Source: Sulfuricurvum sp. | GTDB taxonomy: Bacteria > Campylobacterota > Campylobacteria > Campylobacterales > Sulfurimonadaceae | Assembly: GCF_028710345.1 (NCBI RefSeq) | Contig: NZ_JAQTUH010000001.1 | Span: forward strand, 372,001 to 436,000 | Direction of reading: 5' to 3' | Length of the DNA stretch: 64,000 nucleotides | In this document: piece after piece, positions 17,496 through 43,998 of the stretch | How positions within the stretch are numbered: position 1 is the stretch's first letter | Layout of the letters: the number at the start of each line of letters is the position of its first letter | Translations under genes and position numbers: made by a program | The notes under the pieces: model-generated | Databases searched by the model: none | What the model was told of the DNA's origin: nothing | Seen by the model: the letters and a program-made list of their open reading frames with translations, nothing else

Positions 17496-17498
17496 ATG

Positions 17499-19928
17499 AT
17501 GCGCATTGTTATCGTAGGAGGCGGGATCGCCGCTGTCTATATCGCCAATTCTCTGATGGAGAAGGCTCCAAAATCCGAGGTGGTGATTGTTTCGGATGAG
17601 AAACACCCTCCGTATGATCGGATCCATTTGTGTAAGTTGGTAGAGGATTGTAACTGTGTTGACTCGATTGAGCTGGAACTGCACCCGAAAGTGAAGCTGG
17701 AACTAGATCAAAAAATCATCTCGATTGATCCCGCTCAAAAACGGGTTTTCAGTGAACATGCCGCATTTCATTACGATAAGCTGATACTTGCTACGGGATC
17801 GGTGCCCAAATCGTTGTTTGATATTTCACACATTGAGAATGCGGCAACTTTCCGTTCTCAAAAAGATTGTGAACAAATTGCGCAGGGGATGATAGGTCGC
17901 AATGTGGTGATCGTCGGAGCGGGACCGATCGCGCTCGAATTGCTCGATACTCTCATGCGCAGTGACGCTCCGCAGAGTATCACCTTGCTTGTGCGTAAAA
18001 ACTATCTCTACTCCGAGGTAATTAGCCGTGAGGGATTGGCACTGATTCAGGGGATTTTCGAAGCGGACAGCCGTGTAAGTATCCGATTCGGCGATCAAAT
18101 CGTGGATAAAGAGGTTGAGGGAAATGTTATAACCAAGGTGTTGACCAAGCAAGGGGAGATCGACAATCCGTTTATTATTTTCGGGGTCGGTATCGATCCC
18201 AATATCCCCTACGCGCGTGACCTCCTCGAATGTGACAAAGGTATTTTGGTCGATGAGAGGATGCGTACCTCGGATGAGAACATCTACTGCGTCGGCGAAG
18301 CGGCACAGCTACGTGATGGAGGATTTATCGCAGGACGGGTCAAAGAATGCATTCTCCAAGCAGATGTGGCTGTCGCACATCTGCTTGGAGATGCAAACTC
18401 ATCATTTAAAGAAGAGGTCTCGATCGACGGACTCAAAGTGGGATCATTTTTGTTCGCCGATGTCACCGCGACCGATTTCAACCCCAAAGATAGTGAGAAC
18501 GAAACGATTTTGATCACGCATGGGGATCGGATCGATCAGTATATCGTTAATAATGATCGTCTGAAACGGTTTATCGGGATCAACACCAACATCGATCTTC
18601 TGGCACTCAAACGGTTGATTGAAACTAATTCACCGATTGATGCGGCGTATCTCTACTCGAACCGTTTGATGTCCGAATACGGGAAACTCGTCTGTAGCTG
18701 TGAGGGGGTGCATGAACTGGAGTTGGTCGAGATTATCAAAGAGAATGCGGTGACGTCGTTCGCTGAGCTCAAAGAACACTCAAAAGCGGGACGAACGTGC
18801 GGACGTTGCAAGCAGGATATTTGCGCGATTATCAGCGCAACTCCCGTCGATCATGAGGAAGCGGCACGGTTACGTGCTGAAAAAGTAGCGGCAGCTCAGG
18901 CAGCAGAACTGGAAAAAGTGCGCGCTCGGATCGAAAAATACAACCGACTTCACCCAAAAAATCAGCTGAGTGCCGAGAACTTCCATGAGGCATTAGAATC
19001 GTTTGAAATGAGCCGTGAGTTTAACCGCTGGATTTCGATGATTACCGCATCGATGCATCTGCATCCGCAGTTTGAGGGGGTCGTGGAAGAGGGGGTGACA
19101 CAACTCAACAAAATCCCGATCATCTGGCTCGAACTCTCAGACTGTACGGGTAATTCGGAGGCGTTTATTAAAACCTCACACCCAAAAGTGGACGATTTGA
19201 TCCTCAAATATATCTCGCTCGATTATCATGAGCTATTGATGGCGGCTTCGGGGGATCAGTCGGAGTCTGCTCTGGAGAGCATACTCCATAATGATAGCGG
19301 CAAATATGTCTTGATCGTCGAGGGGGCAGTTCCGTTAGGGATGGATGGGAAGTTCTTGCGTATCGGTCCTAAGGGCGAGACGGGGGTCGATTTATTGCGT
19401 CGCGTCGCCAAAAATGCCGCAGCGGTGATCGCGGTGGGATCATGTGCCTATGATGGCGGTGTCGTTGCCGCCGCGCCTAATCCGACGGGTGCGGTCGGGG
19501 TTGCCGAAGCATTGGGAAGAACTGATATTATCAACCTCCCCGGTTGTCCGACCAACCCGATCAATATCGTCGGAACGCTGTTGCAGTACATCATGTTCGA
19601 TGAGTTCCCGAAACTCGATTCCAATAACCGCCCTGAATGGGCGTACGGTTTCCGTGTTCATGATAACTGTGAACGCAGAGGGCATTACGATGCCGATGAA
19701 TTTGTCCGTGAGTGGGGCGATGAGGGGGCGAAGAAAGGGTGGTGCCTTTTTGAAATGGGGTGCAAAGGGCCATACGCCGATCTCAACTGCTCCCTCGTGA
19801 AATTTAATGAGGGGACGAGTTGGCCGGTACAGGCGGGGCATGGATGTTTCGCCTGCGGTCAGGGGAAAATCGCATTTGATAGCTATGCTAATAATCGTAA
19901 ACTACCGGAGAGTGAAAATGAGCACTAA
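17499..19928 (+). CDS. Fusion of FAD/NAD(P)H oxidoreductase, BFD [2Fe-2S] domain and [NiFe] hydrogenase small subunit
   Basis: This is a single 809-residue frame. Residues 1-~385 form a NirB/rubredoxin-reductase-like flavoprotein: an FAD-binding GGGIAA at the N-terminus, ILATGS, a second dinucleotide fold VVIVGAGPIALELL near 133 and YCVGEAAQ. Residues ~395-445 form a BFD-type [2Fe-2S] domain with Cys399, Cys401, Cys434 and Cys437. A charged helical linker follows, and from ~538 a group 1-type hydrogenase small subunit begins. It has Cys549 in CTGNSE, GSC, PGCP and the HDNCERR, CLFEMGCKGP and CFAC medial/distal cluster motifs. There is no Tat signal, so the enzyme should be cytoplasmic. ATG 17499 has GAGGAG six nt upstream; ATG 17496 is the alternative. 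It likely transfers electrons between H2 and NAD(P)H; direction and partner are inferred. Confidence 0.9.
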   Translation: MRIVIVGGGIAAVYIANSLMEKAPKSEVVIVSDEKHPPYDRIHLCKLVEDCNCVDSIELELHPKVKLELDQKIISIDPAQKRVFSEHAAFHYDKLILATGSVPKSLFDISHIENAATFRSQKDCEQIAQGMIGRNVVIVGAGPIALELLDTLMRSDAPQSITLLVRKNYLYSEVISREGLALIQGIFEADSRVSIRFGDQIVDKEVEGNVITKVLTKQGEIDNPFIIFGVGIDPNIPYARDLLECDKGILVDERMRTSDENIYCVGEAAQLRDGGFIAGRVKECILQADVAVAHLLGDANSSFKEEVSIDGLKVGSFLFADVTATDFNPKDSENETILITHGDRIDQYIVNNDRLKRFIGINTNIDLLALKRLIETNSPIDAAYLYSNRLMSEYGKLVCSCEGVHELELVEIIKENAVTSFAELKEHSKAGRTCGRCKQDICAIISATPVDHEEAARLRAEKVAAAQAAELEKVRARIEKYNRLHPKNQLSAENFHEALESFEMSREFNRWISMITASMHLHPQFEGVVEEGVTQLNKIPIIWLELSDCTGNSEAFIKTSHPKVDDLILKYISLDYHELLMAASGDQSESALESILHNDSGKYVLIVEGAVPLGMDGKFLRIGPKGETGVDLLRRVAKNAAAVIAVGSCAYDGGVVAAAPNPTGAVGVAEALGRTDIINLPGCPTNPINIVGTLLQYIMFDEFPKLDSNNRPEWAYGFRVHDNCERRGHYDADEFVREWGDEGAKKGWCLFEMGCKGPYADLNCSLVKFNEGTSWPVQAGHGCFACGQGKIAFDSYANNRKLPESENEH

Positions 19929-21612
19929 AAAAATTATTATTGACCCGATTACACGAATCGAGGGGCATTTACGGATCGAAGTGGAGATTGATGAGAATAA
20001 TGTGGTTACCGAGGTATGGGCTTCAGGTCAGCTGTTTCGAGGGATCGAGACGATTTTAAAAGGGCGTGATCCGCGCGATTCGGGATTGATCGCTCAGCGC
20101 ATCTGCGGGGTGTGTACGAATGTTCATTATCGCGCTTCGATCAGTGCGGTGGAAGCGGCGTACGGTATTGAAATACCTCATAATGCCGAGATTATCCGCA
20201 ACCTCGTCACCCTCTCGTTGTTCGTTCAAGATCATATCGTCCACTATTATCACCTCCATTCACTCGATTTCGTCGATATAACGGGTGCGCTCAGTGCCGA
20301 TTGTAGCAAAGCTGCCAAAGATGCAGAGCAGTGGGGTGAACACCCTTATCGCAATTCGGATGGGCATCTCGAAGCGATCAAAGAGAAGCTGGAAGGGTTT
20401 GTCAAAGCGGGACGATTGGGACTCTTTGCCAACGGCTACTGGGGACACACTGCTTATCGTTTCAGCCCCGAAGAGAATCTGATCCATATGAATCACTATC
20501 TTGAAGCGTTACGTATACAGCGTGAACTCTCTAAGGCAGTGGCGATTTTTGCGGGTAAAACACCCCATCCTCAAAATCTCGTTGTCGGAGGGGTGACAAG
20601 CGTAGCCGATATGCTCAACCCTCAGCGACTGAACGACTTTTTGTTTATCATCAAAGAGACGAGGGACTTCATCGAACGTGCCTATATCCCCGATATGGTG
20701 ATGCTCGTCAATGCCTACCGTGACTCTATCAAATCAGGTGAGGGCCGCGCTAGCGGTAATTTTATGTGCTGCGGCGGATACCGATTCGGTAAAGATCAGC
20801 AGCTCTTTAGTAGCGGCGTGATTAAAGGGCATGATTTTGAGAGTGTCGAGCCGTTTGATTCGAGCAAAATCACAGAAGAGGCATCTCGCTCATGGTATGA
20901 GAACGATGCTCCCCTCTCACCGTATGAGGGAGAGTCGACACCGTTTTATACCGATTTAAACGATGATGGATCTCTCAAAACCGAGGGAAAATATACGTGG
21001 GTCAAAGCACCTCGCTATGATGGCGAAGTTATGGAGGTGGGACCTTTAGCTCGTATGATTATGGGATATGTCCAAAACTCTCCCGTCGTTCGTCCCTATA
21101 TGGAGCGATTTATGAAACGCTCCGGGATGGAGCTGATTGATTTCTCTACGACGATAGGGCGCAATGCCGCGCGCGCTGTTGAAGCGCAAATCTGTTGCGA
21201 TTATCTGTTTGACACGATGAGTGATTTGATCGAAAATATCAAATATTACGATGAGACGACGTGGACGAAATATGTGTTTGAAGAGCTTCCCCATGAAGCA
21301 AAGGGAGCAGGTATTTTCGAAGTGCCGCGCGGGGTTTTAGGTCATTTTGTCCGTATCGAGGAGGCTAAAATCGCCAACTATCAAGCGGTAGTCCCGACGA
21401 CGTGGAATGCTTCGCCCAAGGGAGCCAAAGAGGGACGCGGAGCGTATGAGGAGTCGTTGATTGGGATTCGCCTCGCCGATCCATCTGCACCGTTAGAGGT
21501 GTTACGCGCGGTTCACTCATTCGATCCATGTCTCGCGTGCGCGGTGCATGTAATCGATGCGACGGGAAAAGAATTATCACATTATAAAATAATGAATAGT
21601 TGTTCGGTATAA
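19918..21612 (+). CDS. [NiFe] hydrogenase large subunit, partner of the flavoprotein fusion
   Basis: This 564-residue catalytic subunit has Cys63/Cys66 in RICGVC and Cys538/Cys541 in DPCLACAVH. A 20-residue tail follows (ending YKIMNSCSV) that a maturation protease would remove after His544. It is close in sequence to HydB at 27336, so the two pairs look like duplicated group 1 enzymes, one adapted to the cytoplasm. The ATG at 19918 was chosen because MSTKKIIIDPITRIEGH matches the normal start. It overlaps the fusion gene by 11 nt. A dispersed repeat follows. Confidence 0.92.
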   Translation: MSTKKIIIDPITRIEGHLRIEVEIDENNVVTEVWASGQLFRGIETILKGRDPRDSGLIAQRICGVCTNVHYRASISAVEAAYGIEIPHNAEIIRNLVTLSLFVQDHIVHYYHLHSLDFVDITGALSADCSKAAKDAEQWGEHPYRNSDGHLEAIKEKLEGFVKAGRLGLFANGYWGHTAYRFSPEENLIHMNHYLEALRIQRELSKAVAIFAGKTPHPQNLVVGGVTSVADMLNPQRLNDFLFIIKETRDFIERAYIPDMVMLVNAYRDSIKSGEGRASGNFMCCGGYRFGKDQQLFSSGVIKGHDFESVEPFDSSKITEEASRSWYENDAPLSPYEGESTPFYTDLNDDGSLKTEGKYTWVKAPRYDGEVMEVGPLARMIMGYVQNSPVVRPYMERFMKRSGMELIDFSTTIGRNAARAVEAQICCDYLFDTMSDLIENIKYYDETTWTKYVFEELPHEAKGAGIFEVPRGVLGHFVRIEEAKIANYQAVVPTTWNASPKGAKEGRGAYEESLIGIRLADPSAPLEVLRAVHSFDPCLACAVHVIDATGKELSHYKIMNSCSV

Positions 21613-21635
21613 TACAAAATAGAATTTGTTTCATT

Positions 21636-21726
21636 CGTCATTCCCGCGTAGGCAGGCATTGTGCCCCCTGCGGGTAAATCCGGCTCTTTTTTTAAGATGG
21701 ATCCCCGGGTCAAGCCCGAAGATGAC
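21636..21726. repeat. Dispersed intergenic repeat (CGTCATTCCCGCG / GGATCCCCGGG family), copy 1
   Basis: Two blocks, CGTCATTCCCGCG (21636-21648) and GATGGATCCCCGGGTCAAGC (21696-21715), are shared with 25870-25932, where they occur in reverse order. Both contain short palindromes. It sits between the fusion-hydrogenase operon and the TetR gene. Confidence 0.7.
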
Positions 21727-21743
21727 AATGTAAAGGAAGTATT

Positions 21744-22337
21744 TTGGCACGACCTACAAAAGAAGAACGTAAAATCTCCATCATGACCAAAGCATTGGAG
21801 CTCTTCTCCAAAGAGGGATTTTACCAAACCACAATGCCCACCATTGCCGAAAAAATCGGGATGAGTGTGGGTAACCTCTATAACTATTTTACCTCCAAAG
21901 AGATGCTGGCAAAAGATCTCATCCTCTACATTGCCAATATTTTGGGTGAAGAAATCCGAGCCATCAATGAAAGCGGGGTGGGTACGCAAGAGAAAATCGA
22001 AGCGATTGTCCACATGTATTTCCGTGTTGCTAAAGATCGACCTGAGACCATCGAGTATTTTTTACGGGTTTATCTCTCTAACCGCGAAGTATTTCAAAAC
22101 TGCTGTGAGGGGATGATTTGCGTCTCCGCATTTGTCACCGAGATGATGATTTTCTTCGAAGAGGGTGTTCGGTGCGGTGAGTTGAGAGACCAAGATTTTT
22201 TTAGTGCGTTCGGTCTTTTTATGGGGTATTTGGGGGGGATGGTATTTATCCATGGAGAAAATATCCTCCCCAAACCGTTAGAAGAGTATGAACACACCAT
22301 CGCCGAAAATATCTACTATGCCCTCAAAACCCGCTAA
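21744..22337 (+). CDS. TetR/AcrR-family transcriptional regulator next to hydrogenase genes
   Basis: This 197-residue regulator has an N-terminal helix-turn-helix (ALELFSKEGFYQTTMPTIAE and VGNLYNYFTSKEMLAKDL, about residues 13-60) and a variable ligand-binding helical domain containing NCCEGMICVS. It uses a TTG start with AAAGGAAG 5 nt upstream. Its 3' end overlaps the next gene, a hydrogenase small subunit, so regulator and hydrogenase pair are translationally coupled. This raises the possibility that it reports on H2 or redox state. Its ligand and targets are unknown; the palindromes upstream of hydA and nikM are candidate sites. Confidence 0.88.
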   Translation: MARPTKEERKISIMTKALELFSKEGFYQTTMPTIAEKIGMSVGNLYNYFTSKEMLAKDLILYIANILGEEIRAINESGVGTQEKIEAIVHMYFRVAKDRPETIEYFLRVYLSNREVFQNCCEGMICVSAFVTEMMIFFEEGVRCGELRDQDFFSAFGLFMGYLGGMVFIHGENILPKPLEEYEHTIAENIYYALKTR

Positions 22338-23208
22338 AGTCATCTGGCTACAAGGGATTACCTGCAACGGCAATACCCACTCGTTTCTAAACGATCCCTC
22401 ACTGGGGGCTCTTTTAGAATCTATCGAATTCATCCACCATCCGATTCTACCCTGTAAAAAAACACTCAAAGAACTCGTCAAAAAACTTCCTAAATCGGAT
22501 ATTTTGATTTTCGAGGGGGCGTACCGAGCCGATTTTGAGCGTGCAGGGGTGAAGATGGAAACCCTTTTAGTTACCCTTGCCTCTAAAACCAAACATATTA
22601 TTGCATTGGGCAGTTGTGCGAGTTTCGGAGGGATTTTTAAAGAGGCTTCCCCCGAACATATCAGCGGAATACTTTTTGATAAAGAGAGTGAGAGCGGTCC
22701 TTTGCAGACACTGCGTAAAAAAGTGATTACCCTCAGCGGATGCCCCATCCATCCTAAATGGCTCAGTTTTGTCCTCGATATGATCGTTCAGGGAAAAAAA
22801 ATCACTCTCGATGAGTACCGCCGTCCCAAAGAGTTGTACGGCTATCTCGTCCACAACGGCTGTTTGCGTAATGAGTATTTCGAGTGGAAAGTAGACAGTG
22901 ATCATTTCGGAACCAAAGAGGGGTGCTTGTACTACGCCCAAGGGTGCCAAGGCCCCTTTACCCACGGTAGTTGTAACAAGATTCTCTGGAACGAAGTGAG
23001 CTCCAAAACCCGCGCCGGAACACCGTGCGTCGGATGCACCGAACCCTCATATCCGAGAACAGAACTCTTTAGCACCAAAACCTATATGTCGATTCCCGCT
23101 GAGATGCCGCTGGGAATACCGAAACGGAGCTATCTAGCCCTTGCGGGGGCGGCGAAATCGTTTCATATTAAACGGCTTGAGGGGAAATTAATCGATGATA
23201 ACGCATGA
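22318..23208 (+). CDS. [NiFe] hydrogenase small subunit, group 2-like, cytoplasmic
   Basis: It encodes 296 residues from ATG 22318; ATG 22288 is an alternative with a poorly spaced GAAGAG. It begins with VIWLQGITCNGNTHSF with no signal peptide, so it is cytoplasmic. Cluster ligands include Cys16 (in TCNGN, second proximal Cys replaced by Asn), GSC, SGCP, HNGCLRN, GCLYYAQGCQGP and CVGC. The subfamily resembles cytoplasmic group 2 hydrogenases of Campylobacterota and Aquificae. It overlaps the TetR gene upstream and its large subunit downstream (14 nt). Confidence 0.85.
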   Translation: MPSKPAKVIWLQGITCNGNTHSFLNDPSLGALLESIEFIHHPILPCKKTLKELVKKLPKSDILIFEGAYRADFERAGVKMETLLVTLASKTKHIIALGSCASFGGIFKEASPEHISGILFDKESESGPLQTLRKKVITLSGCPIHPKWLSFVLDMIVQGKKITLDEYRRPKELYGYLVHNGCLRNEYFEWKVDSDHFGTKEGCLYYAQGCQGPFTHGSCNKILWNEVSSKTRAGTPCVGCTEPSYPRTELFSTKTYMSIPAEMPLGIPKRSYLALAGAAKSFHIKRLEGKLIDDNA

Positions 23209-24490
23209 ACTAATCGAGCGAATCGAGGGGGAAGCGGTACTTGATTTTAGAACCGACAAAAGCGGAACCGTCCAAGAAGCCGACATCCGATTTGTCCATT
23301 TTCGGGGGATGGAAGCGATTTTGGAGGGGCGTAACGCCCTCGATGCCCTCGTCATCGCTCCGCGTGTTTGTGGTATCTGCGGACACTCCCATCTCATCGC
23401 GGCGGTGCGGATGATTGAGAACGTCTACATCGATGCGGGATTTTCGCTTTCTATCAGCCCCAAAGCGCATGCAATCCGCGAAATCACCCTAGAGTGCGAA
23501 CTGATCCAAAACCATATCAAATGGCTCTATCTCGTGATGCTCCATGAGAGCGGTAAACTCTTGGGAGAAGAGGCGAATGTATCGCTAAAAGCCCTTTATG
23601 TCACCTCGCAAATCAACCAACTCAGTGCCCTTTTCAGCGGGCAATGGCCACACAGCTCCTACGCCATCCCCGGAGGGGTGACGTGCGATCCAACCCATAT
23701 CGAGGTGATGCAGGCGTTGAAAATCCTCAGTGAGGTAGAGCAGTTCGTTGCCAAAGAGGTTTTGGGATGTCCGTTAGAGAAGTTCGAGTTGCATCTAAAA
23801 AGCGATTCGCACCGTGCGCTGGAGGGGGATTTCTCGAAACTCTTGCACCAGTTTGAGAAGTTAAATCTGCTGAATACGGGAAAAAGCCACGGACGGTTTT
23901 TGGTTTTAGCCGATAACGGAGGCTCACTCGACAACGGTGAACGAAGCGTCGCCGATGTTGCCCTCGTGAGCGAAGACAGCTCCCACACCTTTGCTCACGG
24001 TGGTAAAACTCATGCTAAAAATGCCCTCTACAGAGGAGCATTTTACGAGGGCGGACCACTCGCCCGCGCTCTTATCTCTGAGCGTCAGGGGATATCATCG
24101 CTTTATCAGAAGTATGGGGATTGTGCTATGACACGCTTGAGTGCCCGTATCGATGAGATGGTAACATTGATCGTTCATGTTCGCTCATTGCTCACATCCC
24201 TTGACCTCTCGCAACCTTCGTTTACACCTCCTTCCTCCATTCTGAGTATCAGCGGTTCTGGGGTAGGAATCGTCGAAGCTCCGCGCGGATCGCTAATCCA
24301 TCGTGCCAAAATTGAGAAGGGGAAAATAGTAGAGTATTCGATCATCACCCCGACGCAGTGGAATCTGGGTAACGGAACGGCTTCCAATCTCGGTGTGGCG
24401 CAAAAGGCGATGATCGGAGCCGAATCGATAGCCAAAGCGTCACTCATCTTTCGCACTTTTGATGTATGCTCGGTTTGTACGACGCATTAA
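23195..24490 (+). CDS. [NiFe] hydrogenase large subunit, group 2-like, without C-terminal extension
   Basis: This 431-residue protein has Cys59/Cys62 in RVCGICGHSH. The second ligand motif is FDVCSVCTTH (Cys425/Cys428), where Val replaces the usual Pro of DPCxxC. The chain ends at that His, so no cleavable tail exists. Absence of the tail is typical of H2-sensing HupV/HoxC subunits. The protein is also shorter than the other group 1 large subunits here. Coupling to a TetR gene supports a sensing role, yet a metabolic enzyme cannot be excluded. The ATG at 23195 has GAGGGGA upstream. Confidence 0.88.
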   Translation: MITHELIERIEGEAVLDFRTDKSGTVQEADIRFVHFRGMEAILEGRNALDALVIAPRVCGICGHSHLIAAVRMIENVYIDAGFSLSISPKAHAIREITLECELIQNHIKWLYLVMLHESGKLLGEEANVSLKALYVTSQINQLSALFSGQWPHSSYAIPGGVTCDPTHIEVMQALKILSEVEQFVAKEVLGCPLEKFELHLKSDSHRALEGDFSKLLHQFEKLNLLNTGKSHGRFLVLADNGGSLDNGERSVADVALVSEDSSHTFAHGGKTHAKNALYRGAFYEGGPLARALISERQGISSLYQKYGDCAMTRLSARIDEMVTLIVHVRSLLTSLDLSQPSFTPPSSILSISGSGVGIVEAPRGSLIHRAKIEKGKIVEYSIITPTQWNLGNGTASNLGVAQKAMIGAESIAKASLIFRTFDVCSVCTTH

Positions 24491-25869: not shown

Positions 25870-25932
25870 GATGGATCCCCGGGTCAAGCACGAGGATGAC
25901 GAAAGGCGTCATTCCCGCGAAGGCGGGAATCC
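25870..25932. repeat. Dispersed intergenic repeat, copy 2
   Basis: It contains GATGGATCCCCGGGTCAAGC (25870-25889) and then CGTCATTCCCGCG (25907-25919) with GGCGGGAATCC. These are the two blocks of 21636-21726 in opposite order. It closes the accessory block upstream of hydABC. Confidence 0.7.
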
Positions 25933-26063
25933 AGCTTTTATAAAAATTTAGAGTATGCAATATAATATTTCACCTTCATCTCTATTTGTCCTAAAATTAA
26001 ATAACAAACTAATTTATTAAATTAAATTTTATCTTTTAAATATTCGTTTAAGTTATCGAGGCA

Positions 26064-26086
26064 TACAATACTGAATGATTGTTCAT
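26064..26086 (+). promoter_or_regulatory. hydABC promoter with palindromic element shared with nikM
   Basis: A -10-like TACAAT (26064-26069) or AATACT (26067-26072) is followed by TGAATGATTGTTCA (26072-26085). The 18-mer TACTGAAT-R-A-Y-T-R-TTCAT (26069-26086) matches 43981-43998 upstream of the nickel importer at 15 of 18 positions. Placement at the promoter suggests a repressor or activator site; the binding protein is unknown. Confidence 0.6.
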
Positions 26087-26107: not shown

Positions 26108-27343
26108 ATGTCCGATAGAGTAGAAGCGGTTAAAAAGCTGTTCACTTCGAAAAGTTCGCGCGTCGAAACGAACAAAGGTGAGTCGTATTATCAAGACCTG
26201 TTCGAAAAATGTGAGGCGCGTCTGAATGAGATGCGTGCTCTTGCGCCAGCAAACAAACTCGATTTTAGCGATCTTTTAGAAGAGAACGGGATTGATCGAC
26301 GTGAGTTTATGAAATGGGCGAGTGCAACGACAGCGATGTTGATGCTCCCTCCTATGTTTACACCGCTTGTTGCGGACGCGGCGGTGATGATGAATCGCGC
26401 TCCTGTTATTTGGTTGGAACTTCAAGACTGTGCGGGTAACTCCGAAGCTCTTTTGCGTGCCGATGGACCGAAAATCGATGAGATTGTCCTCGACATCATC
26501 TCCCTCGAATTTCATGAAACGCTCCAAGCCGCTGCAGGTCATCAGGCTGAGAAACAGCTCGATGAAGCAATGGAACATTTCAAAGGTAAATACCTCCTTT
26601 TCGTAGAGGGTGCTATCCCTATGGGAATGGATGGTCAATACGGAACCATCGGGATTAAAGCCGAAACATTCCATGATCATCTCGTCCGCTGTGCTGAAAA
26701 TGCCGCTGCGGTTATCGCAGTCGGAAGCTGTGCGACATTTGGAGGGATTCCTGCTGCGGCTCCGAACCCTACGGGTGCTGTTGGAGTTATGGACGTTATC
26801 AAAAACAAACCTCTTATCAATATCCCCGCCTGTCCTGCGAACCCTGCCAATATGGTGGGTGTAATCTTGCACTATGTATTAACTGGACAAGTACCTGAAC
26901 TCGATTCACTTCTCCGTCCGAAATTTGCATTCGGTTATCGTATCCATGATAACTGCGAACGCCGTGCACACTTCGATGCGGGTGAATACGTCGAAGAGTG
27001 GGGCGATAAGGGTGCTCAAAACAACTTCTGTCTCTACAAAATGGGATGTAAAGGACCGATGACGTTTAATAACTGTTCTATCGTCCGTTACAACGAAGCG
27101 GTGAACTGGCCTATCGGGGTAGGACGCGGATGTATCGGTTGTTCGGAACCTGATTTTTGGGATAAATATGCGTATGAACGTCCGATGGCGGATGCTAAAA
27201 TCAAAGCACCGACGGGCGGCGTAGAGAAAAGTGTGGATGAATTCGGGTTGGGCATGTTGACCGCAGCCGGTATCGGTATTGCGATTCATGCAGCAGCAAG
27301 CGCCGTAGCAGGTAAACGAGAAGAAGGAGAGAGCCATGAGTAA
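26108..27343 (+). CDS. hydA: Membrane-bound [NiFe] hydrogenase small subunit
   Basis: This 411-residue iron-sulfur subunit of the periplasm-facing, quinone-reducing hydrogenase has a long hydrophilic N-terminus of 63 residues. It is followed by the Tat motif DRREFMK (Arg64-Arg65) and a hydrophobic stretch. The mature part has Cys108 in CAGNSE (Asn in place of the second proximal Cys), GSC, PACP, HDNCERR, CLYKMGCKGP and CIGC. A C-terminal hydrophobic helix (GLGMLTAAGIGIAIHAAASA) anchors it. A strong GAGGAGGGG precedes the ATG. It overlaps hydB by 8 nt and is clearly group 1, Wolinella/Helicobacter type. Confidence 0.95.
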   Translation: MSDRVEAVKKLFTSKSSRVETNKGESYYQDLFEKCEARLNEMRALAPANKLDFSDLLEENGIDRREFMKWASATTAMLMLPPMFTPLVADAAVMMNRAPVIWLELQDCAGNSEALLRADGPKIDEIVLDIISLEFHETLQAAAGHQAEKQLDEAMEHFKGKYLLFVEGAIPMGMDGQYGTIGIKAETFHDHLVRCAENAAAVIAVGSCATFGGIPAAAPNPTGAVGVMDVIKNKPLINIPACPANPANMVGVILHYVLTGQVPELDSLLRPKFAFGYRIHDNCERRAHFDAGEYVEEWGDKGAQNNFCLYKMGCKGPMTFNNCSIVRYNEAVNWPIGVGRGCIGCSEPDFWDKYAYERPMADAKIKAPTGGVEKSVDEFGLGMLTAAGIGIAIHAAASAVAGKREEGESHE

Positions 27344-29111
27344 GCACATTGTAGTAGACCCAATTACCCGTATTGAGGGGCATTTACGTATTGAAGCGGT
27401 TATTGATGACAACAATACGATTGTAGACGCGTACAGCGCATCGACAATGTTCCGTGGGATTGAAACGATTTTGCAAGGGCGTGATCCTCGTGACTGCGGA
27501 TTGTTGGCGATGCGTATTTGCGGTGTTTGTACCGGTACTCACTATCAACGCTCTATCGAAGCAGTAGAAGATGCGTTTGCTATTACGATTCCTAAGAATG
27601 CTCGTATCGTGCGTAACCTTATCCAAGGTGCGTTGTATGTGCACGACCATGTCGTCCATTTTTATCACCTCCATGCGCTCGATTTCGTGGATGTCGTCTC
27701 CGCACTCTCAGCTGATCCGGCTAAAACAGCGGCAGAAGCTCGTAAATGGGCAACCGTAGCAGGCTCAACGCCGTACATCGACGGTGAGAGCGAATTTAAA
27801 GCAATTCAAGAGCGTGTCGCAAAATTTGTTAAACAAGGGCGTTTGGGGATTTTCGGAAACGGTTATTGGGGTAATCCTCACTATAAACTCACTCCGGAAC
27901 AAAACCTTATCGGAGTTGCCCACTATTTGTTGGCACTTGACGTTCAACGCGATATGGCAAAAATGCAGGCGATTTTCGGGGGTAAAAACCCGCATCCGCA
28001 ATCTATCGTTGTCGGTGGGGTAACCTGTGTTCAGGATATTCAAAACCCTGCACGTCTTGCATTGTTTAAATCGCTCCTTCTTCAAGGGACGAAGTTTGTT
28101 AAAGAAGCCTATTTGCCAGACGTTTACATGGCGGGAACGATGTATGCGGGTGAAGCAACAGACTCTAAAGCAACTTTCAGTGAATTGATGGGGGGCAAAG
28201 GGGTCGGTGGAACCGGCGGCGGATTGCTCAACTTTATGAGTTACGGAGATTTCCGTCTCGATGATACAGGATTCTATAAATCAGCACTTCTCTTCCCTAA
28301 AGGGGTCGTGATGGGTGGAGATATCTCCAAAGTCCTTCCGTTGGATGAAGCAAAAATCATGGAAGACGTGACCCACTCATGGTATAAAGGGGATAAACCT
28401 CTCCATCCGTATGATGGGCAAACAATCCCAGAATATACAGGTCTTGATCGCAAAGAAGATGGAAACGCCTATCTTAAAACCAAAGAGAAATACAGCTGGA
28501 TTAAATCACCGATTTATAACGATGCTCGCGTCGAAGTAGGGCCGTTGGCACGTATGGTTATCGGTGTGGCGGCTAAAGATGAGCGTATTACCAAATACGT
28601 GACCAACTTCCTCAAACGGGGTAATCTTCCGGTTACTGTCCTCTTTAGTACCGTTGGACGTACTGCGGCTCGCGCCGTTGAGACGGAACTTATGGCGGAT
28701 GTGATGGTGGAGTGGATTGATGAACTCGCTAAAAACGTTTTATCGGGTGATAAAAGCACATGGACTGATTTTGACTTTGATAAAGTCAGTGTGAGTGCAA
28801 AAGGTCGCGGTATGGCGGAAGCACCTCGTGGAGCACTCGGTCACTGGGTAAGCATCGCTGATGGTAAAGTAGCGAATTATCAAGCTATCGTTCCATCGAC
28901 ATGGAATGCGGCACCACGTGATCATAAAAATCGTTTGGGTGCGTATGAAGCGAGTTTGATCGGGACGAAAGTAGCCAACCCTGAACAACCGTTGGAGATA
29001 GTACGTACTATTCACAGTTTTGACCCTTGTATCGCTTGTGCGGTTCACGTTGTCGATACCAAAGGTAAAGAGCTTGCTGTTTACAAAGTAGATACTTCCT
29101 GTAGTATCTAA
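27336..29111 (+). CDS. hydB: Membrane-bound [NiFe] hydrogenase large subunit
   Basis: This 591-residue catalytic subunit has NiFe ligands Cys62/Cys65 in RICGVC and Cys565/Cys568 in DPCIACAVH. A 20-residue C-terminal tail (ending YKVDTSCSI) is to be cut after His571 by a dedicated protease before Tat export with HydA. It has no signal of its own and is carried piggyback. The nearest candidates for the protease are at 37991 and 38548. The sequence is very similar to the large subunit at 19918. Confidence 0.96.
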   Translation: MSKHIVVDPITRIEGHLRIEAVIDDNNTIVDAYSASTMFRGIETILQGRDPRDCGLLAMRICGVCTGTHYQRSIEAVEDAFAITIPKNARIVRNLIQGALYVHDHVVHFYHLHALDFVDVVSALSADPAKTAAEARKWATVAGSTPYIDGESEFKAIQERVAKFVKQGRLGIFGNGYWGNPHYKLTPEQNLIGVAHYLLALDVQRDMAKMQAIFGGKNPHPQSIVVGGVTCVQDIQNPARLALFKSLLLQGTKFVKEAYLPDVYMAGTMYAGEATDSKATFSELMGGKGVGGTGGGLLNFMSYGDFRLDDTGFYKSALLFPKGVVMGGDISKVLPLDEAKIMEDVTHSWYKGDKPLHPYDGQTIPEYTGLDRKEDGNAYLKTKEKYSWIKSPIYNDARVEVGPLARMVIGVAAKDERITKYVTNFLKRGNLPVTVLFSTVGRTAARAVETELMADVMVEWIDELAKNVLSGDKSTWTDFDFDKVSVSAKGRGMAEAPRGALGHWVSIADGKVANYQAIVPSTWNAAPRDHKNRLGAYEASLIGTKVANPEQPLEIVRTIHSFDPCIACAVHVVDTKGKELAVYKVDTSCSI

Positions 29112-29121
29112 GGAGAGCATT

Positions 29122-29814
29122 ATGAGCTACAAACAAGTTAAACGGATGACTCCCGCCATGCGGATCATCCACTGGGTGAATGCGTTTAGTATGATTGGTG
29201 CTGTCATAACAGGGCTTTATATCGGTCATCCGTACTATCAAACGTTCATCGCTGATGGTGCAGTCGATAAATATGTGATGGCATGGAATCGTTACGGGCA
29301 CTTTATGATTGCGATTATTTTTGATGTTACATCGGTGATCATCGCCTATTTGTATTTTTTCAGCCGTTTTGAAAAACCGTATAAAAAATTGATACCCAAT
29401 GGAAAAAATGTAACTGAATTTATTGCCGTTTTGGTCAATTTATTGACGCTAAATCGTAGTAAAAAATTTGATTCATCGCATGCAGACAGTTTTAATACCG
29501 TCTATTTTACGATTTTTCATATACTGCTCATTTGGATGCTTCTCACAGGGCTACAAATGTATGTACATGGATTGGAATCGGGAATCAGCTCTATCGGGGC
29601 ATGGTGGCCGTGGTTGTTGCATATTGCAACCGATTGGACGATTCCATTTACGGGCGGAACATTGATGGATGTCCGTATTTCACATCATGAAACTATGTGG
29701 TGGATTATCTGCTGGGTCGTGTTTCATATCTACTACCAAGTGTGGAGAACGATTTTCTGGAAAGAAGGCGATATTGCCATCGTTATCGGCGGTTCTAAAT
29801 TCGTCAAAGAATAA
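29122..29814 (+). CDS. hydC: Hydrogenase cytochrome b subunit
   Basis: This 230-residue integral membrane di-heme cytochrome b hands electrons from HydA to menaquinone. It has about four or five membrane helices with candidate heme His residues in MRIIHWVNAFSMIGA, GHFMIAIIFDV, FHILLIW and HHETMWWIICWVVFHIYYQV. AAGGAGAG lies before the ATG, 10 nt after hydB. It completes the H2:quinone module. No hydD follows directly, unlike in Helicobacter and Wolinella. Confidence 0.93.
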   Translation: MSYKQVKRMTPAMRIIHWVNAFSMIGAVITGLYIGHPYYQTFIADGAVDKYVMAWNRYGHFMIAIIFDVTSVIIAYLYFFSRFEKPYKKLIPNGKNVTEFIAVLVNLLTLNRSKKFDSSHADSFNTVYFTIFHILLIWMLLTGLQMYVHGLESGISSIGAWWPWLLHIATDWTIPFTGGTLMDVRISHHETMWWIICWVVFHIYYQVWRTIFWKEGDIAIVIGGSKFVKE

Positions 29815-30003: not shown

Positions 30004-31926
30004 ATGGCATTCGCATTGGAGTTGATAACTCCGTTCTCCCAACCCACGATTAAAAATTATGTTATCTCCATTATTCGCTCTTTCGGACTCAAAGCGGTCG
30101 TTCATCAACAAAAAAACAAAATTATTTGCGCGTTTGATAAGAGTGACGAGAAGCTTCAGGGATGTTTGGAAGTGATTGCTAATACGTTGCCCGCTTCGTG
30201 TTTTATGAGTAGCTCACAGCACTATGAGCTAGAGGGGGAACCCGAATCAATTCCTGATTTCGATGTGGAATATCCGCCGTCACTCGGATTATGCCCCTCG
30301 TGTCAAAAAGAGATGTTCGATCCCTCCTCAAAACGGTACTATTACCCTTTTACCCACTGTACCCATTGCGGTGGGCAATACGGTTTTTTTGAAAAGTATC
30401 CGTACTTGCGCGAAAACACTGCATTAAAGTATCTTGTACCGTGTCCTGTATGTGAAGAAGAGAGCAAAAGCTTTGGGCGTCGTGAAAAGCAGGTTCTGAA
30501 CTCTTGTCACTCTTGCGGCATCCCTGTCAAACTGATTCACAAAGATAAAGAGCGCTATGCGAACGATGCGGGGAGTTTTAGAACGTTGTTTGAAGTTGCC
30601 GCCAAAGCGTTGCGTGATGGCAAAACACTCCTCATGAAAACAACGATGGGGTATCGGTTGTTTGAACGCTTAGACAAGCTTCCTCAAGGCTCCGTATTAA
30701 TGCTCTCTAATGCGATGAAAATCACCGACTATTGCTCTCTCATCAATGATGAGTTTAACGCATTACTCAGTATTGAGCGTCCGATTTTACACGTAGCACT
30801 CAAAGATGAAGCACTGCGCGAGACATTCGGAGCTTCGGTGGATGTCAAATACCCTGATGAGGGTTTCTCTATTCTTCTCGCTAAAGAGCTGAGCCTTTTA
30901 GGGATTGATTTTATCGCGTATACCTCTTTAGAAGAGCCATGTGAAGCCGATTTTGTAATGGATTTTGATTTAGAACTCAATCATCAAAGCGATATGCGAT
31001 TGTTTATCAACAAGGACATTAAATTTATCGCTTCAGGGGAGAGGGTTTCGTTTCCCTCTCGTTTAGCATATGGAGCTGATACTCTGAGCATCGCACATGG
31101 TCTTGTTGGTATCAGAGATGAGCGAGGAGTACTGTTCGATCAAATCGGTCGCTTTGAGAGCGCATCAACGCTGAAAGTCAATCAATTGGACTCTGAAACA
31201 CCTGCCGTAGAATCGGCTAACTTTCATCCGATAAGTGCCGATGAAGCCTCGTTTATGTCGGTGATCGCCGAGCATAATAAATTCGGAACCAAAGTCGTGG
31301 GTGCTTATTTCGAGGGGGAACCGTCGTTTCTCTATTATGACGGCAAAAAAGTGATTCGGGTTGTCCCTCCGAAACACTTTAGTGGGAGCGGTATCATCGA
31401 AGAAATGCGAGGATTACGCGAGGGGTCGGATCGCCTTATCGAGAGTGTCGAAAAAAACCATCCGCAGTTGCATGAAATTTTAATGAGAATCGAAAATAGC
31501 AATGTGAATCTTTTTGAAGCGACAGCGATGATTTTGGGTCTTCCTGAGGAGAGTTTCGAGGGAGTTGTAAAAGAGGCTTTGAAGTTTATCGGTAAAGGGG
31601 GGCTCCAAATCGATACCAAGGTGGAGGATAACCGTTTCAACCATGTTGCCTTTTTGGCAAGTATCATCAGTTATCGCCTCGCGGGTGTCGGTTCAGTGTA
31701 TTTAAGCTATTCAATTTTCGAATCTTTTGGAGATTATTTTAGTGAACTCCTCACAGAAATAAAAGGGAAAACAAAAGCAACCGATATCGTGTTGTGCGGG
31801 TCGTATTTTGCAGGACAGTCGCTCTTTAGTCGTTTACAAAGAAATTTGAAAGCAACTCCGATTTTGATGAATCGAAGTTACCCGATAGGGAAGGAAAATT
31901 GTGTTGTCGGTGGAGTCTTTTTATGA
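30004..31926 (+). CDS. hydE: HypF-related hydrogenase accessory protein (HydE-like)
   Basis: This 640-residue protein has a HypF-type zinc-finger region near residues 100-170: LCPSCQKEMFDP, HCTHCGGQYGF, VPCPVCEEE and CHSCGIPV. YrdC-like and Kae1/HypF-C-like parts follow, but with the usual active-site motifs eroded. The acylphosphatase-like N-terminus is not recognisable. The layout and position after hydABC match HydE of Wolinella and Helicobacter, which is needed for that enzyme. A true HypF is encoded at 33846, so this paralogue has a separate, uncertain role. The symbol is by position and resemblance. Confidence 0.65.
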   Translation: MAFALELITPFSQPTIKNYVISIIRSFGLKAVVHQQKNKIICAFDKSDEKLQGCLEVIANTLPASCFMSSSQHYELEGEPESIPDFDVEYPPSLGLCPSCQKEMFDPSSKRYYYPFTHCTHCGGQYGFFEKYPYLRENTALKYLVPCPVCEEESKSFGRREKQVLNSCHSCGIPVKLIHKDKERYANDAGSFRTLFEVAAKALRDGKTLLMKTTMGYRLFERLDKLPQGSVLMLSNAMKITDYCSLINDEFNALLSIERPILHVALKDEALRETFGASVDVKYPDEGFSILLAKELSLLGIDFIAYTSLEEPCEADFVMDFDLELNHQSDMRLFINKDIKFIASGERVSFPSRLAYGADTLSIAHGLVGIRDERGVLFDQIGRFESASTLKVNQLDSETPAVESANFHPISADEASFMSVIAEHNKFGTKVVGAYFEGEPSFLYYDGKKVIRVVPPKHFSGSGIIEEMRGLREGSDRLIESVEKNHPQLHEILMRIENSNVNLFEATAMILGLPEESFEGVVKEALKFIGKGGLQIDTKVEDNRFNHVAFLASIISYRLAGVGSVYLSYSIFESFGDYFSELLTEIKGKTKATDIVLCGSYFAGQSLFSRLQRNLKATPILMNRSYPIGKENCVVGGVFL

Positions 31927-31967: not shown

Positions 31968-32007
31968 CTGTTTTAGTTATTTTAATTCTAAGCATGGAGC
32001 TTTGTAC

Positions 32008-33822
32008 ATGACCATACATAATCGACTTATGATGACGGCAGGATTAACCCTGTTGGTTCTTCTTATAGTGAGCTTTTTATCCTATTCTACAACTGAATCG
32101 GTTCGTATTAAAGGTGCAGCATACAATCAGATTGCCGATTCCAAAGATCTTATAGCCGATATACTTCCCCCTCCCGAATACATTATCGAAGCACGCTTAG
32201 CAAGTCTTGAACTCGTAGAAGATTCTAAAAAATTTGATAGTAATGTCAAACGAATTTCGAGTTTGGAGAAAGATTTTAAAGACCGCCAAGAATATTGGGA
32301 AAAAAGCGGGTTGGATTCGAAATTAAAATCGATGATTACCAGTGAAGCAAAAACGACGGCAGAACACTATTTTGCATTGGTCAACGATAAATTAATTCCT
32401 CTCGTTAAAGAGGGACGTATTGATGAAGCGCGAGCATTTGCACATGGGGATCTCGAAAAGGCGTTTGAAAAACATTTTGAGACTATTAATCCTATAGTTA
32501 AAGAAGCTACAGAACAAGCTAAAGCCAATGAAACAGCTGCGGATGGATTGGTCAGCTCAGGGCACGTAAAAATGGCTTTTGCTGCAATTGGTGGATTTAT
32601 TGTTGCTTTTCTCCTCTTTTTTCTTACAACACGACGTATCACTTCACGTTTGAGTGAATTTAAAAATGTAGCCGATGCTCTCTCCAGTGGAGATGCGGAT
32701 CTCTCTCGTCGTATTAACTTTGAAGGGCACGATGAGATTGTGGAAGTGGCAAACTCTTTTAACCGATTTTTGGACAAAGTAGCCGATATCGCCCGTGATG
32801 CACAGCGTGATGCACAGAGTTCACATGTTGCTAATGAAAAGGCTAAAAAAAGTCTTGTCCATTCTGAGATGATGATTAATCTCTCAGGTCATATGACAGG
32901 AGGGGCTGTGAGCGGAGCCAAAGATTTGCAAGAATCGGCACAACATGCAGTAGCTAGTTTAGGAAATGTAAATATCTTAAATGAATCAACTGCTGAAGTG
33001 GTAGCTGAGGTTAAAGAGAGTACGGGAGGAATTATTGATTCAATTAATCACATTTCTGAAATGATTAATGAAAATCGTGATAATGCTCAACAGTTGCAAA
33101 AAAGTATCGGTGACATATCTCAGGTGATTGCTTTGATTAAAGATATATCGGATCAAACCAATCTTTTAGCCTTGAATGCAGCGATTGAAGCAGCACGTGC
33201 AGGGGAGCATGGTCGTGGCTTTGCTGTTGTTGCTGATGAAGTACGAAAACTGGCTGAGCGTACTCAAAAAGCGACTTCTGAGGTAGAAATGTCGATTAAT
33301 ATGCTCAAACAAAGTGCCGGTTCGATGGTTGAGAGCAGTGAAACAACTGAAGAATATGCAGATGATTCGACCCGAAAACTTGATGCTTTTACGCAATCAT
33401 TGAGCGAGTTAATCGAAAAATCAGGGATTATTAAACGGGATAATCAGTTTATTTCGTATGAAATTTTTGGTATATTAGCAAAACTTGACCATTTAGTTTT
33501 TAAACTTAATGCTTACGGATCAATTTTTGATAATGAACTCAAAGCACAGTTTGGTGATCATCACGGATGTCGTTTGGGTAAATGGTATGAACATGGTGAT
33601 GGAAAAACTGCTTTTGGAAATACCAATGCGTATCGTCGACTTGAAGAGCCACATAAAATTATTCATGACAATGTTCTTCGTGCTTTAGAGTGTGTTAAAC
33701 GAGACGATTGTGTTGAACGTCGTGATGAACTTTCAGTCGCTTTTGGAGAGACAGAACGTCAAAGTACTATCCTTTTCGGGGTACTTAATGATATGATTAA
33801 CGAAGCTAGAGGAAAAGCGTAA
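32008..33822 (+). CDS. Methyl-accepting chemotaxis protein with C-terminal CZB domain
   Basis: This 604-residue chemoreceptor has a first membrane helix at ~5-27, a helical periplasmic sensor (four-helix type, ~30-180) and a second helix near 190-207. A HAMP domain follows, then the signalling domain with the hairpin tip [20 protein letters not shown] and [19 protein letters not shown]. The C-terminus is a CZB zinc-binding domain ([27 protein letters not shown]) with the expected three His and one Cys. CZB receptors respond to zinc and thiol or hypochlorous oxidation. ATG 32008 has GGAG eight nt upstream. Placement among hydrogenase genes suggests redox or energy taxis. Confidence 0.92.
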
Positions 33823-33845: not shown

Positions 33846-36089
33846 GTGTCTGAACAATCCGATAACGTCCGAATCATTATACGCGGTATTGTTCAGGGGG
33901 TAGGGTTTCGTCCGTTTGTCTATCGTGAAGCAACCCGTTACGGCATTCGCGGATTTGTCTGCAATACTCCAGAGGGTGTCGTGATTGAAGCCCACGGGAT
34001 GCAGTGTGAGTCGTTTATAAAAGCGTTGAGAGAAAACCTCCCTGACCGTGCCCGTATCGATTCGATGGAGATTGAAGCGTGTGAATTTACGCCGTTCAGC
34101 GATTTTGAGATTCGTGAGAGTACTTTGGGATTTGGATCGGTTGCTATTCCTCTCGACACTGCTTTGTGTTCCGCCTGTCAAGCCGAAATGGATGATCCTC
34201 TCAATCGACGTTACCGCTATCCATTTATCAACTGCACCGATTGCGGCCCTCGCTATACTATCATCCAAACCCCTCCCTATGATCGCGTCCGCACCTCGAT
34301 GAAACATTTTACGATGTGCCCTGAGTGTTTAGAGGAATACAACAACCCAACTTCTCGCCGTTATCATGCCGAACCTATCTCTTGTCCTAAATGTGGACCG
34401 CAATTAAAATTCCTTGATAATAAGGGGATTGAGATTGCAGGTAATCCTATTGATCTTGCTGTGAGGTTGCTCAAAGAGGGGAAAATCATCGCCCTCAAAG
34501 GGCTGGGGGGATTTCATCTGATGTGCGATGCGACTAACGATGAAACGGTAGCAGAGTTACGAAGACGAAAGCACCGTAAAGCCAAACCGTTAGCGGTGAT
34601 GTTCGGCTCCATCGAACAACTCGAAACGTATGTATCGATCAATGAGGTGGAAAGAAACCATATCACGGGTTCTATTAAGCCTATCGTGATTGTTGATGCA
34701 CAAGCGGGGACAAACTTATCCCCTCAAATCGCCCCCCATATTCAAAGATTAGGGGTATTTCTCCCCTATACTCCGCTTCATCGATTGTTATTTGAGCAGA
34801 TTGATTTCCCTCTCGTTGCAACCAGTGCTAACATCAGCGATGAGCCGATTATGATCCGTTCCTCCGAAATCCTCAACCGTCTTAGTCATGTAGTGGATGG
34901 GATACTCGATCATGACCGTACCATTATCAATGCCCTCGATGATGCGGTGATTCAGATTGCCGAGGATCGGGTGGTGATGTTGCGTCTGGGTCGCGGATTT
35001 GCTCCCCATACTTTTGCTTTGCAACACCCTAGCGACAAAGCGGTTTTAGCTCTCGGTGCCCATCAAAAGAGTGCCATCGCCCTTGGGGTCAAAGAGAACA
35101 TGGTATTGAGTGGACATATCGGAGATTTGGGAAGTGTCGAAGCCGATGGCTATTTTGAGCGGACGGTACAGACCTTTAAACGGTTTTATGACGTTGAACC
35201 CTCAGTGCTCGTGCACGATCTCCATCCGCAGTACGCTTCGAGTGTATTTGTAGTGTCGCAAAAAAAAGAGCACTACGGACTCCAGCACCATTATGCCCAT
35301 ATCCTCGCCTGCATGGCGGAGTATGCTTTGAGTGAAAAAGTGCTCGGCTTTGCGTATGACGGTACGGGTTACGGATCGGACGGGAGTCTGTGGGGGGGAG
35401 AGGTGATGATCGCAGACACGCACGGTTATGAGAGAGTCGGACATCTCAAACCCTTTGCCCTCTTAGGAGGGGACAAAGCGATCAAAGAACCGAGACGGAT
35501 TGCGTTGTCATTGCTGTTTGAGAGTTATAGTCTCGATGAGGTGATGAGTCTAAAATCACCGACGGTGGAAGCCTTTTTACCCCACGAGATCCGAACCCTT
35601 CACCATATGTGGCTCAAAAATATAAACGCTCCCCGAAGCTCATCAATGGGACGACTTTTTGATGCGGTGGCATCCTTGGGGGGATTTGTCCAAAGTCTCG
35701 ACTACGAGGGGCAGGGGGGGATGATGATGGAGTCGTTTGTGGAGGATTCCATCACCGGAGCGTTTGCTTTTGAGGTAAAAGATGGGATGATAGACCTCTC
35801 CCCTATGGTTCGAGAAATTATCTCTCTAGAGGGGGATAAAACACAGATTGCCAGCCGTTTTATTTCTACGGTAGAAGCGATCATGAGCTATTATGCCGAT
35901 CAATATCCTGCATTGTCGATAGTCGTTGGAGGAGGGGTTTTTCAAAACCGTGCGTTGATGGCACGGCTCTATCGCCGCTTTGGCGCAGGGCGATTTTATG
36001 CCCAACAGCAAACGCCGATTAATGATGGATCGATTGCTCTTGGTCAGCTTTATTATGCGATACATAATGCGGAAAAAAGCTTCTCATGA
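33846..36089 (+). CDS. hypF: Carbamoyltransferase HypF
   Basis: This 747-residue maturation enzyme makes the carbamoyl group that becomes the CN ligands of the NiFe centre. Domains appear in order: acylphosphatase (GIVQGVGFRPFVYREA and RGFVCNT, ~10-95), two zinc fingers (CSACQAEM, CTDCGPRYT, CPECLEEY, CPKCGPQ, ~105-185), YrdC-like (KEGKIIALKGLGGFHLMCDA, ~200-380), and Kae1-like (HHYAHILACMAEY and YDGTGYGSDGSLWGGE, ~390-747). GTG start with AACAGGAG upstream. It is remote from the other hyp genes. Confidence 0.96.
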   Translation: MSEQSDNVRIIIRGIVQGVGFRPFVYREATRYGIRGFVCNTPEGVVIEAHGMQCESFIKALRENLPDRARIDSMEIEACEFTPFSDFEIRESTLGFGSVAIPLDTALCSACQAEMDDPLNRRYRYPFINCTDCGPRYTIIQTPPYDRVRTSMKHFTMCPECLEEYNNPTSRRYHAEPISCPKCGPQLKFLDNKGIEIAGNPIDLAVRLLKEGKIIALKGLGGFHLMCDATNDETVAELRRRKHRKAKPLAVMFGSIEQLETYVSINEVERNHITGSIKPIVIVDAQAGTNLSPQIAPHIQRLGVFLPYTPLHRLLFEQIDFPLVATSANISDEPIMIRSSEILNRLSHVVDGILDHDRTIINALDDAVIQIAEDRVVMLRLGRGFAPHTFALQHPSDKAVLALGAHQKSAIALGVKENMVLSGHIGDLGSVEADGYFERTVQTFKRFYDVEPSVLVHDLHPQYASSVFVVSQKKEHYGLQHHYAHILACMAEYALSEKVLGFAYDGTGYGSDGSLWGGEVMIADTHGYERVGHLKPFALLGGDKAIKEPRRIALSLLFESYSLDEVMSLKSPTVEAFLPHEIRTLHHMWLKNINAPRSSSMGRLFDAVASLGGFVQSLDYEGQGGMMMESFVEDSITGAFAFEVKDGMIDLSPMVREIISLEGDKTQIASRFISTVEAIMSYYADQYPALSIVVGGGVFQNRALMARLYRRFGAGRFYAQQQTPINDGSIALGQLYYAIHNAEKSFS

Positions 36090-38548: not shown

Positions 38549-39078
38549 TGCGCACGGTGGTATTGGGTGTCGGCAATGTTCTGGAAGAGGACGACGGCGT
38601 TGGGATATACGCATGCGCCTATCTAAACGCCAACTATACCTTCACCCCTGACATAGAGATTATCAATGGTGGAGTCGAGGGGATCAATCTTCTCAACCTC
38701 TTTATGGAGAATGACCGAATTATTATCCTCGATACAATCAATCTCGATGATGAGGCGGGAAGTATCTACAATATCCCCTCGTATGAGCTAAGCGGTTATG
38801 GGCTTAACAGCGGCGGTGCGCATGAAGTCGGGGTGATGCAGTGTTTGGATATGATCGAGTTAATGGGACATCCGCTCCCTGAGTCCAACGTCATCGGGAT
38901 TATCCCCAAAAGCATTACGTTTAATATGGGGCTGAGCGATGAACTGAGTGAACATTTTAGTAGCTATATAAATACAGTTATTAACTATCTTAGAACACTA
39001 GAGATTGATGCAACACCCAAAGAGGTTCACAAGGCTCTATTAGAGATTATAGAGGAGTTTAAATACCCTAGTCGATAG
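38548..39078 (+). CDS. Hydrogenase maturation protease (HyaD/HycI family)
   Basis: This 176-residue protease has all three metal positions: Asp in EEDDGVGIYA (Asp at the Glu16 site, as in HycI), Asp in IIILDTINLDD and His in GGAHEVG. It has an extra C-terminal helix (about 30 residues) beyond the family core. It is coupled to the preceding protease by a TGATG-type junction. There are two proteases and exactly two large subunits with a removable tail (19918 and 27336), which suggests one each; which serves which is unknown. Confidence 0.85.
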   Translation: MRTVVLGVGNVLEEDDGVGIYACAYLNANYTFTPDIEIINGGVEGINLLNLFMENDRIIILDTINLDDEAGSIYNIPSYELSGYGLNSGGAHEVGVMQCLDMIELMGHPLPESNVIGIIPKSITFNMGLSDELSEHFSSYINTVINYLRTLEIDATPKEVHKALLEIIEEFKYPSR

Positions 39079-43966: not shown

Positions 43967-43998
43967 TATAATTACCACTATACTGAATAACTATTCAT
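43967..43998 (+). promoter_or_regulatory. nikM promoter with palindromic element shared with hydA
   Basis: TATAAT (43967-43972) or TATACT (43979-43984) serves as -10. TGAATA-AC-TATTCA (43984-43997) is a 6-bp-arm palindrome within the 18-mer shared with the hydA promoter (see 26064). It is a possible operator for nickel or H2 control of importer and hyp genes. No perfect NikR box was found. Confidence 0.6.

Follow-up and report, generated by a model that had tools for sequence, protein, structure and literature searches.

A tetR–hupS–hupL gene module in Sulfuricurvum as a candidate H2-responsive regulator of hydrogen uptake and nickel genes

The window, by which we mean the whole stretch of 64,000 nucleotides of Sulfuricurvum sp. 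that was analysed, contains a gene for a TetR-family regulator followed directly by the genes for the two subunits of a cytoplasmic [NiFe]-hydrogenase. These three genes (referred to below as the triad) and the features with which we associate them are as follows, with positions counted from the first letter of the window:

21744–22337, plus strand: tetR, TetR-family one-component regulator; TTG start; PF00440 (TetR_N), E 4.6e-14
22288–23208, plus strand: hupS, small subunit of a cytoplasmic group 2d [NiFe]-hydrogenase; PF14720 and PF01058
23195–24490, plus strand: hupL, large subunit of the group 2d [NiFe]-hydrogenase; PF00374 (NiFeSe_Hases)
26072–26085, no strand assigned: putative operator 1, TGAATGATTGTTCA, 22 bp upstream of hydA
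26108–27343, plus strand: hydA, small subunit of a membrane-bound uptake hydrogenase (group 1b type); likely TetR target
27336–29111, plus strand: hydB, large subunit of the uptake hydrogenase, with a 20-aa C-terminal tail
29122–29814, plus strand: hydC, cytochrome b subunit in the same operon as hydA and hydB, assigned in part by synteny
43984–43997, no strand assigned: putative operator 2, TGAATAACTATTCA, 13 bp upstream of a nickel/cobalt transporter gene
44011–44679, plus strand: gene for the CbiM/NikM-type substrate-specific subunit of an ECF nickel/cobalt transporter; PF01891, E 6e-56

As the preliminary description of this DNA had stated, tetR overlaps the small-subunit gene, the overlap being 50 bp; hupS and hupL overlap by 14 bp. 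HupS carries no Tat signal and lacks the N-terminal extension found in HydA, and the tetR–hupSL cluster as read contains no histidine kinase gene. On one side of the triad is a hydrogenase whose small subunit is a fusion (17496–21612) and on the other is hydABC (26108–29814); the CbiM/NikM-type gene is followed by CbiQ/CbiO-like genes and then by hypB. In the flanking hydrogenase, which has its own large subunit and is widespread in the genus, the small subunit is extended at its N-terminus by a fused FAD/NAD oxidoreductase-like and BFD-like region (810 aa). A repeat-like element (GGATCCCCGGGTCAAGC...) occurs twice, at 21630–21735 and 25870–25940, on either side of the tetR–hupSL region, and a pentapeptide-repeat gene lies between hupL and hydA; we rejected the latter as a component of the system because it occurs in only some genomes of the genus. 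Farther along the hydrogenase cluster are a gene for a second, divergent HypF-like protein (30004–31926; HypF zinc finger, with the rest a weak match), which adjoins a full hypF (33846–36089) and is kept in the cluster across genera, and a gene for a methyl-accepting chemotaxis protein with a CZB domain (32002–33822), a possible link between chemotaxis and hydrogen use.

The large subunit ends exactly at the His of its second ligand motif (...FDVCSVCTTH), which bears out what had been noticed earlier, and both of its CxxC ligand motifs are intact (L1, RVCGICGHSH; L2, DVCSVCTTH). In a maximum-likelihood tree, HupL falls in an 11-row clade (100/100) with the enzymes of Aquifex, Hydrogenobacter and Persephonella, apart from groups 2a and 2b, and the 2b sensors HoxC and HupV form a separate clade (100/99) with HupL outside it. 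By this tree HupL belongs to the group 2d (Aquificae-type) [NiFe]-hydrogenases, the group to which its Campylobacterota relatives have also been assigned (PMC12286921); the enzyme is thus a group 2 hydrogenase, as the preliminary description had assumed, but not a member of the sensor clade to which it had been likened. HydDB describes group 2d as having an 'Unresolved role. May generate reductant for carbon fixation or have a regulatory role' (PMC5037454). The reading of D-V-C in place of D-P-C in the second motif, singled out earlier, is correct, but it is typical of the lineage (DVC, DIC or DLC across 2d; DSC in 2a), and we therefore rejected it as a peculiarity of the HupL of this genome. 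All 75 HupL relatives whose end is intact stop at the same position and have no C-terminal tail. Of the group 2 enzymes in our comparison, those of 2a (Thermus and Sulfobacillus, tail of 19–20 aa) and one GGDEF-linked enzyme are tailed and, unlike HupL, adjoin a protease gene, and those of 2b and 2d have no tail. Tail absence, which had been put forward as the mark of a sensor, is indeed shared with HoxC and HupV, but it characterises group 2d as a whole, even Aquifex with its non-adjacent tetR; we rejected it as sole evidence for a sensor, and the missing tail is compatible with a sensor role while alone proving nothing. The Phe gas-channel residue of HoxC is absent from HupL, as judged by eye from the alignment.

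The AlphaFold model of TetR (pLDDT 90) has an all-helical TetR fold, and its Foldseek matches are TetR proteins. Two cysteines of the ligand domain, C121 and C126, form a CX4C motif that is invariant in 75 of 75 sequences and recurs in the orthologs from Aquificota; the model places both cysteines in a loop between helices 100–110 and 128–143, where pLDDT is 73–79. Between genomes, conservation is slightly higher in the ligand domain than in the DNA-binding domain (65.6% versus 61.7%), an order that is unusual among TetR proteins. At one triad locus (L085, G058:C3:112908–114081) two further TetR paralogs, 42–49% identical, stand in tandem at a distance of ~7 kb from the triad, and directly past them is an operator-like palindrome.

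In Campylobacterota, hydA of the uptake hydrogenase is preceded at ~30–50 bp by a palindrome, TGAATGATYATTCA. Both of the palindromes that the preliminary description had named as possible TetR sites are present in the window (operators 1 and 2), and only four such palindromes occur in the entire 3.0-Mb genome, two being these, which argues that the two in the window are not there by chance. The other two (C4:264187 and C16:1556) have no recognisable hydrogen genes adjoining them and were treated as chance matches. Operator 1 is directly downstream of a TACAAT hexamer (26064–26069); a sigma-70 scan recovered no promoter with its -10 element at 26064–26069, and the start site was placed by eye.

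A weight matrix trained on the operators of this genus alone was then applied to loci outside the genus. It found a match in front of hydA at 64 of 64 triad-type (HupL-bearing) loci elsewhere in the phylum, with scores of 12.1–26.3 bits, and in front of none of 12 control hydA genes (9 orthologs from genomes without TetR and 3 distant second copies), among which the best score was 4.2 bits (Fisher 6e-10, shared ancestry ignored). The shuffle null averaged -0.1, with its 99.9% quantile at 14.2; of the 64 hydA scores, 58 lie above that quantile and six below it. Where hydA is 10–25 kb from the triad the operator is kept (genomes G110, G236 and G063) or is present in weaker form (G268). In G164, which has no TetR, hydA is 86% identical and the operator is absent, and in G209 the triad-linked hydA has the operator and a remote second hydA is without it. 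At six Aquificota loci (L273, L276, L279 and L300–L302), TetR adjoins hydA, not hupSL, and the same operator precedes hydA.

The predicted regulon extends beyond hydABC. Ten genomes together contain 21 perfect palindromes, of which ~15 stand in front of hydA, hypA, hypB, hypE or genes for NicO-type nickel transporters; the reversed control pattern gave 5 matches. Of the other genomes in the genus, all six with the CbiM-type gene have a counterpart of operator 2 in front of it, as does G057; G051 and G055 have none at that position. In Aquificota, many loci with the gene order hypB–tetR–hupS–hupL have the operator in front of hypB. TetR targets unrelated to hydrogen metabolism had been named in advance as an outcome that would speak against a hydrogenase–TetR connection; the predicted sites precede uptake-hydrogenase, maturation and nickel genes. 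Also in the window is a gene for a zinc-ribbon protein with a weak match to IS1595 transposases (39068–39760), homologs of which adjoin or diverge from the operator in the hydrogenase clusters of other genera (L259, L260, L265 and L271).

TetR and HupL occur together almost without exception. Among 249 Campylobacterota genomes (TetR called at E up to 1e-55), 52 encode TetR, 52 encode HupL and 51 encode both, adjacent every time (p ~6e-51, shared ancestry ignored); G253, the only genome with HupL for which no TetR was called, has a frame-broken TetR adjoining HupL. The three genes are on one strand in all 119 triad loci. TetR with intact cysteines is kept in G018, G033 and G189, where no HupL match was found, and in G189 the operator still stands in front of hydA, so that TetR may work there without HupSL. 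In Aquificota, TetR is present in 8 of the 8 HupL genomes checked, against a base rate, for TetR alone, of 51 of 121 genomes (hypergeometric p = 7e-4, shared ancestry ignored). Because tetR is not next to hupSL in Aquifex and several other Aquificota, linkage alone does not explain the pairing. TetR distances also track HupL distances once HydA distances are removed (partial r 0.74, permutation p 0.001), which is weak evidence given that linked genes are inherited together. At the genomic level, comparison of sequences gives strong support to the coupling of a hydrogenase with a one-component TetR regulator: the signalling layout proposed in the preliminary description gains from the near-obligate co-occurrence, the co-divergence and the operator before hydrogen genes. 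Its claim to novelty holds in part, since the adjacency of tetR and hupSL had already been reported in Sulfurospirillum multivorans (PMC5357620), with the same gene arrangement as here; in the open-licence PMC literature we found no report of the operator regulon, or of a TetR–operator network that ties group 2d to uptake-hydrogenase and nickel genes.

We propose that tetR–hupS–hupL is an H2-responsive module in which TetR represses the hydABC, nickel and hyp genes and HupSL is the H2 sensor that relieves this repression, a reading to which we assign a probability of roughly two in three. The gene module, its conservation, the putative operator and the predicted targets are drawn from sequence, the operator being assigned to TetR from conservation and co-occurrence. 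In particular, a dimeric TetR repressor would bind the TGAATGATYATTCA palindrome over the start region of hydABC and hold the operon off, and would act likewise at related sites before the genes for nickel uptake and hyp maturation. HupSL, as a cytoplasmic, tail-less group 2d hydrogenase, would turn over H2 and signal to TetR through contact and/or electron transfer to C121 and C126; release of TetR would then allow the uptake hydrogenase to be made and nickel to be imported. A more specific version, in which electrons from H2 would pass through the Fe-S relay of HupSL directly to the CX4C motif of the TetR dimer, giving a kinase-free H2 switch that uses no diffusible signal and is common to Campylobacterota and Aquificota, is one that we offer tentatively and think doubtful in its full detail. 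Published physiology bears on the proposed module in both directions. In Aliarcobacter butzleri, H2 raises hynAB 2.3–6.2-fold and lowers huaSL (PMC12286921), and two other Aliarcobacter genomes carry the triad and the operator, which together we count as support. In S. multivorans, hydB is constitutive, not H2-induced, which we count against it, and hupL transcripts are almost absent (PMC5357620); that group 2d enzymes have been found barely expressed or detected (PMC5357620, PMC10052474) we count as support. Also against the module we count the three genomes with TetR and no HupL match, the six hydA scores under the shuffle quantile and the missing Phe residue of HupL.

The palindrome might belong instead to some other regulator of hydrogenases, with TetR and HupSL forming a separate system with other targets. 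This is compatible with an assignment made by comparative genomics only, but among hydA orthologs the presence of the operator follows that of TetR, the pattern extends to Aquificota, and a short inverted repeat is the typical form of TetR operators; we regard such a regulator as very unlikely. Scarcely any weight goes to the view that TetR is a repressor of its neighbours hupSL and has no wider role, as Kruse et al. (2017) proposed for the TetR encoded upstream of hupSL in S. multivorans (PMC5357620). That tetR lies upstream of hupS and overlaps it, and that hupL is nearly silent in S. multivorans, accord with that view, but the operator stands in front of hydA at every one of the 64 loci tested and, counting strong sites, in front of tetR–hupSL in only 13 of 123 operons. 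Because so few of these operons carry the operator, the target of TetR would be hydrogen uptake and not hupSL; here the data indicate hydABC, hyp and nickel genes. We likewise rejected autoregulation through a matrix match at 21593, since this match falls within the codons for MNSCSV, the conserved C-terminal end of the large subunit encoded upstream; the scarcity of strong sites at tetR promoters disfavours autoregulation further.

A less remote reading, which we still consider unlikely, is that TetR does control the hydABC, hyp and nickel genes but itself senses a metal, a redox state or a small metabolite, and that HupSL is a co-inherited, metabolic cytoplasmic hydrogenase, supplying for instance reductant for the reverse TCA cycle. 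Small ligands are usual for TetR proteins, the invariant CX4C could be a metal site or a thiol switch, TetR persists in the three genomes without a HupL match, and the literature long favoured ferredoxin reduction for Hase III of Aquifex and for the group 2 enzyme of Nautilia. On the other hand, no HupL was found without TetR among the 249 genomes (the TetR of G253 being frame-broken), and unlinked TetR and HupL pairs of Aquificota still co-occur. Moreover, the enzyme is hardly detected in Aquifex, where the authors thought a ferredoxin role unlikely (PMC10052474), and huaSL expression falls with H2 in A. butzleri (PMC12286921).

The proposed TetR–HupSL module invites comparison with the group 2b sensors HupUV/HoxBC, which act with the kinase HupT/HoxJ and the regulator HupR/HoxA (as on pHG1 of C. 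necator). These are likewise cytoplasmic, two-subunit and tail-less, and are encoded with a regulator; the inferred targets are again an uptake hydrogenase, with a nickel permease gene nearby. The two differ in clade, in the second ligand motif (DVC in HupL versus DPC in 2b), in the length of the large subunit (431 aa versus 485 aa) and in the partner, a one-component TetR in all 119 triads versus a histidine kinase and a sigma-54 response regulator. Closer kin are Hase III of Aquifex, Hup2 of Hydrogenobacter and HuaSL of Campylobacterota, all of group 2d, which share the clade, the tail-less end and the ligand motifs of HupL. By sequence, the closest solved structures are of group 2a (Huc of M. 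smegmatis, Thermus, cyanobacterial HupSL), with 7utd matching the large subunit at E 4e-40 and the small subunit at E 8e-53. The authors of one study suggested that an H2 sensor is absent from a Campylobacterota species; in major chemolithoautotrophs of vents and sulfidic waters, TetR–HupSL is a candidate circuit for H2 control, and it would offer a compact part for H2 biosensors. Whether group 2d enzymes supply reductant or regulate becomes directly testable through the predicted TetR–operator regulon, which is tied to group 2d in two phyla of hydrogen-dependent bacteria. Six relatives within the genus (G002, G005, G007, G008, G013 and G024) display two diverged versions of the triad (TetR 65% and HupL 48% identical) despite neighbouring hydA genes that are 92–94% identical, as if the putative sensor–repressor module had been swapped as a unit.
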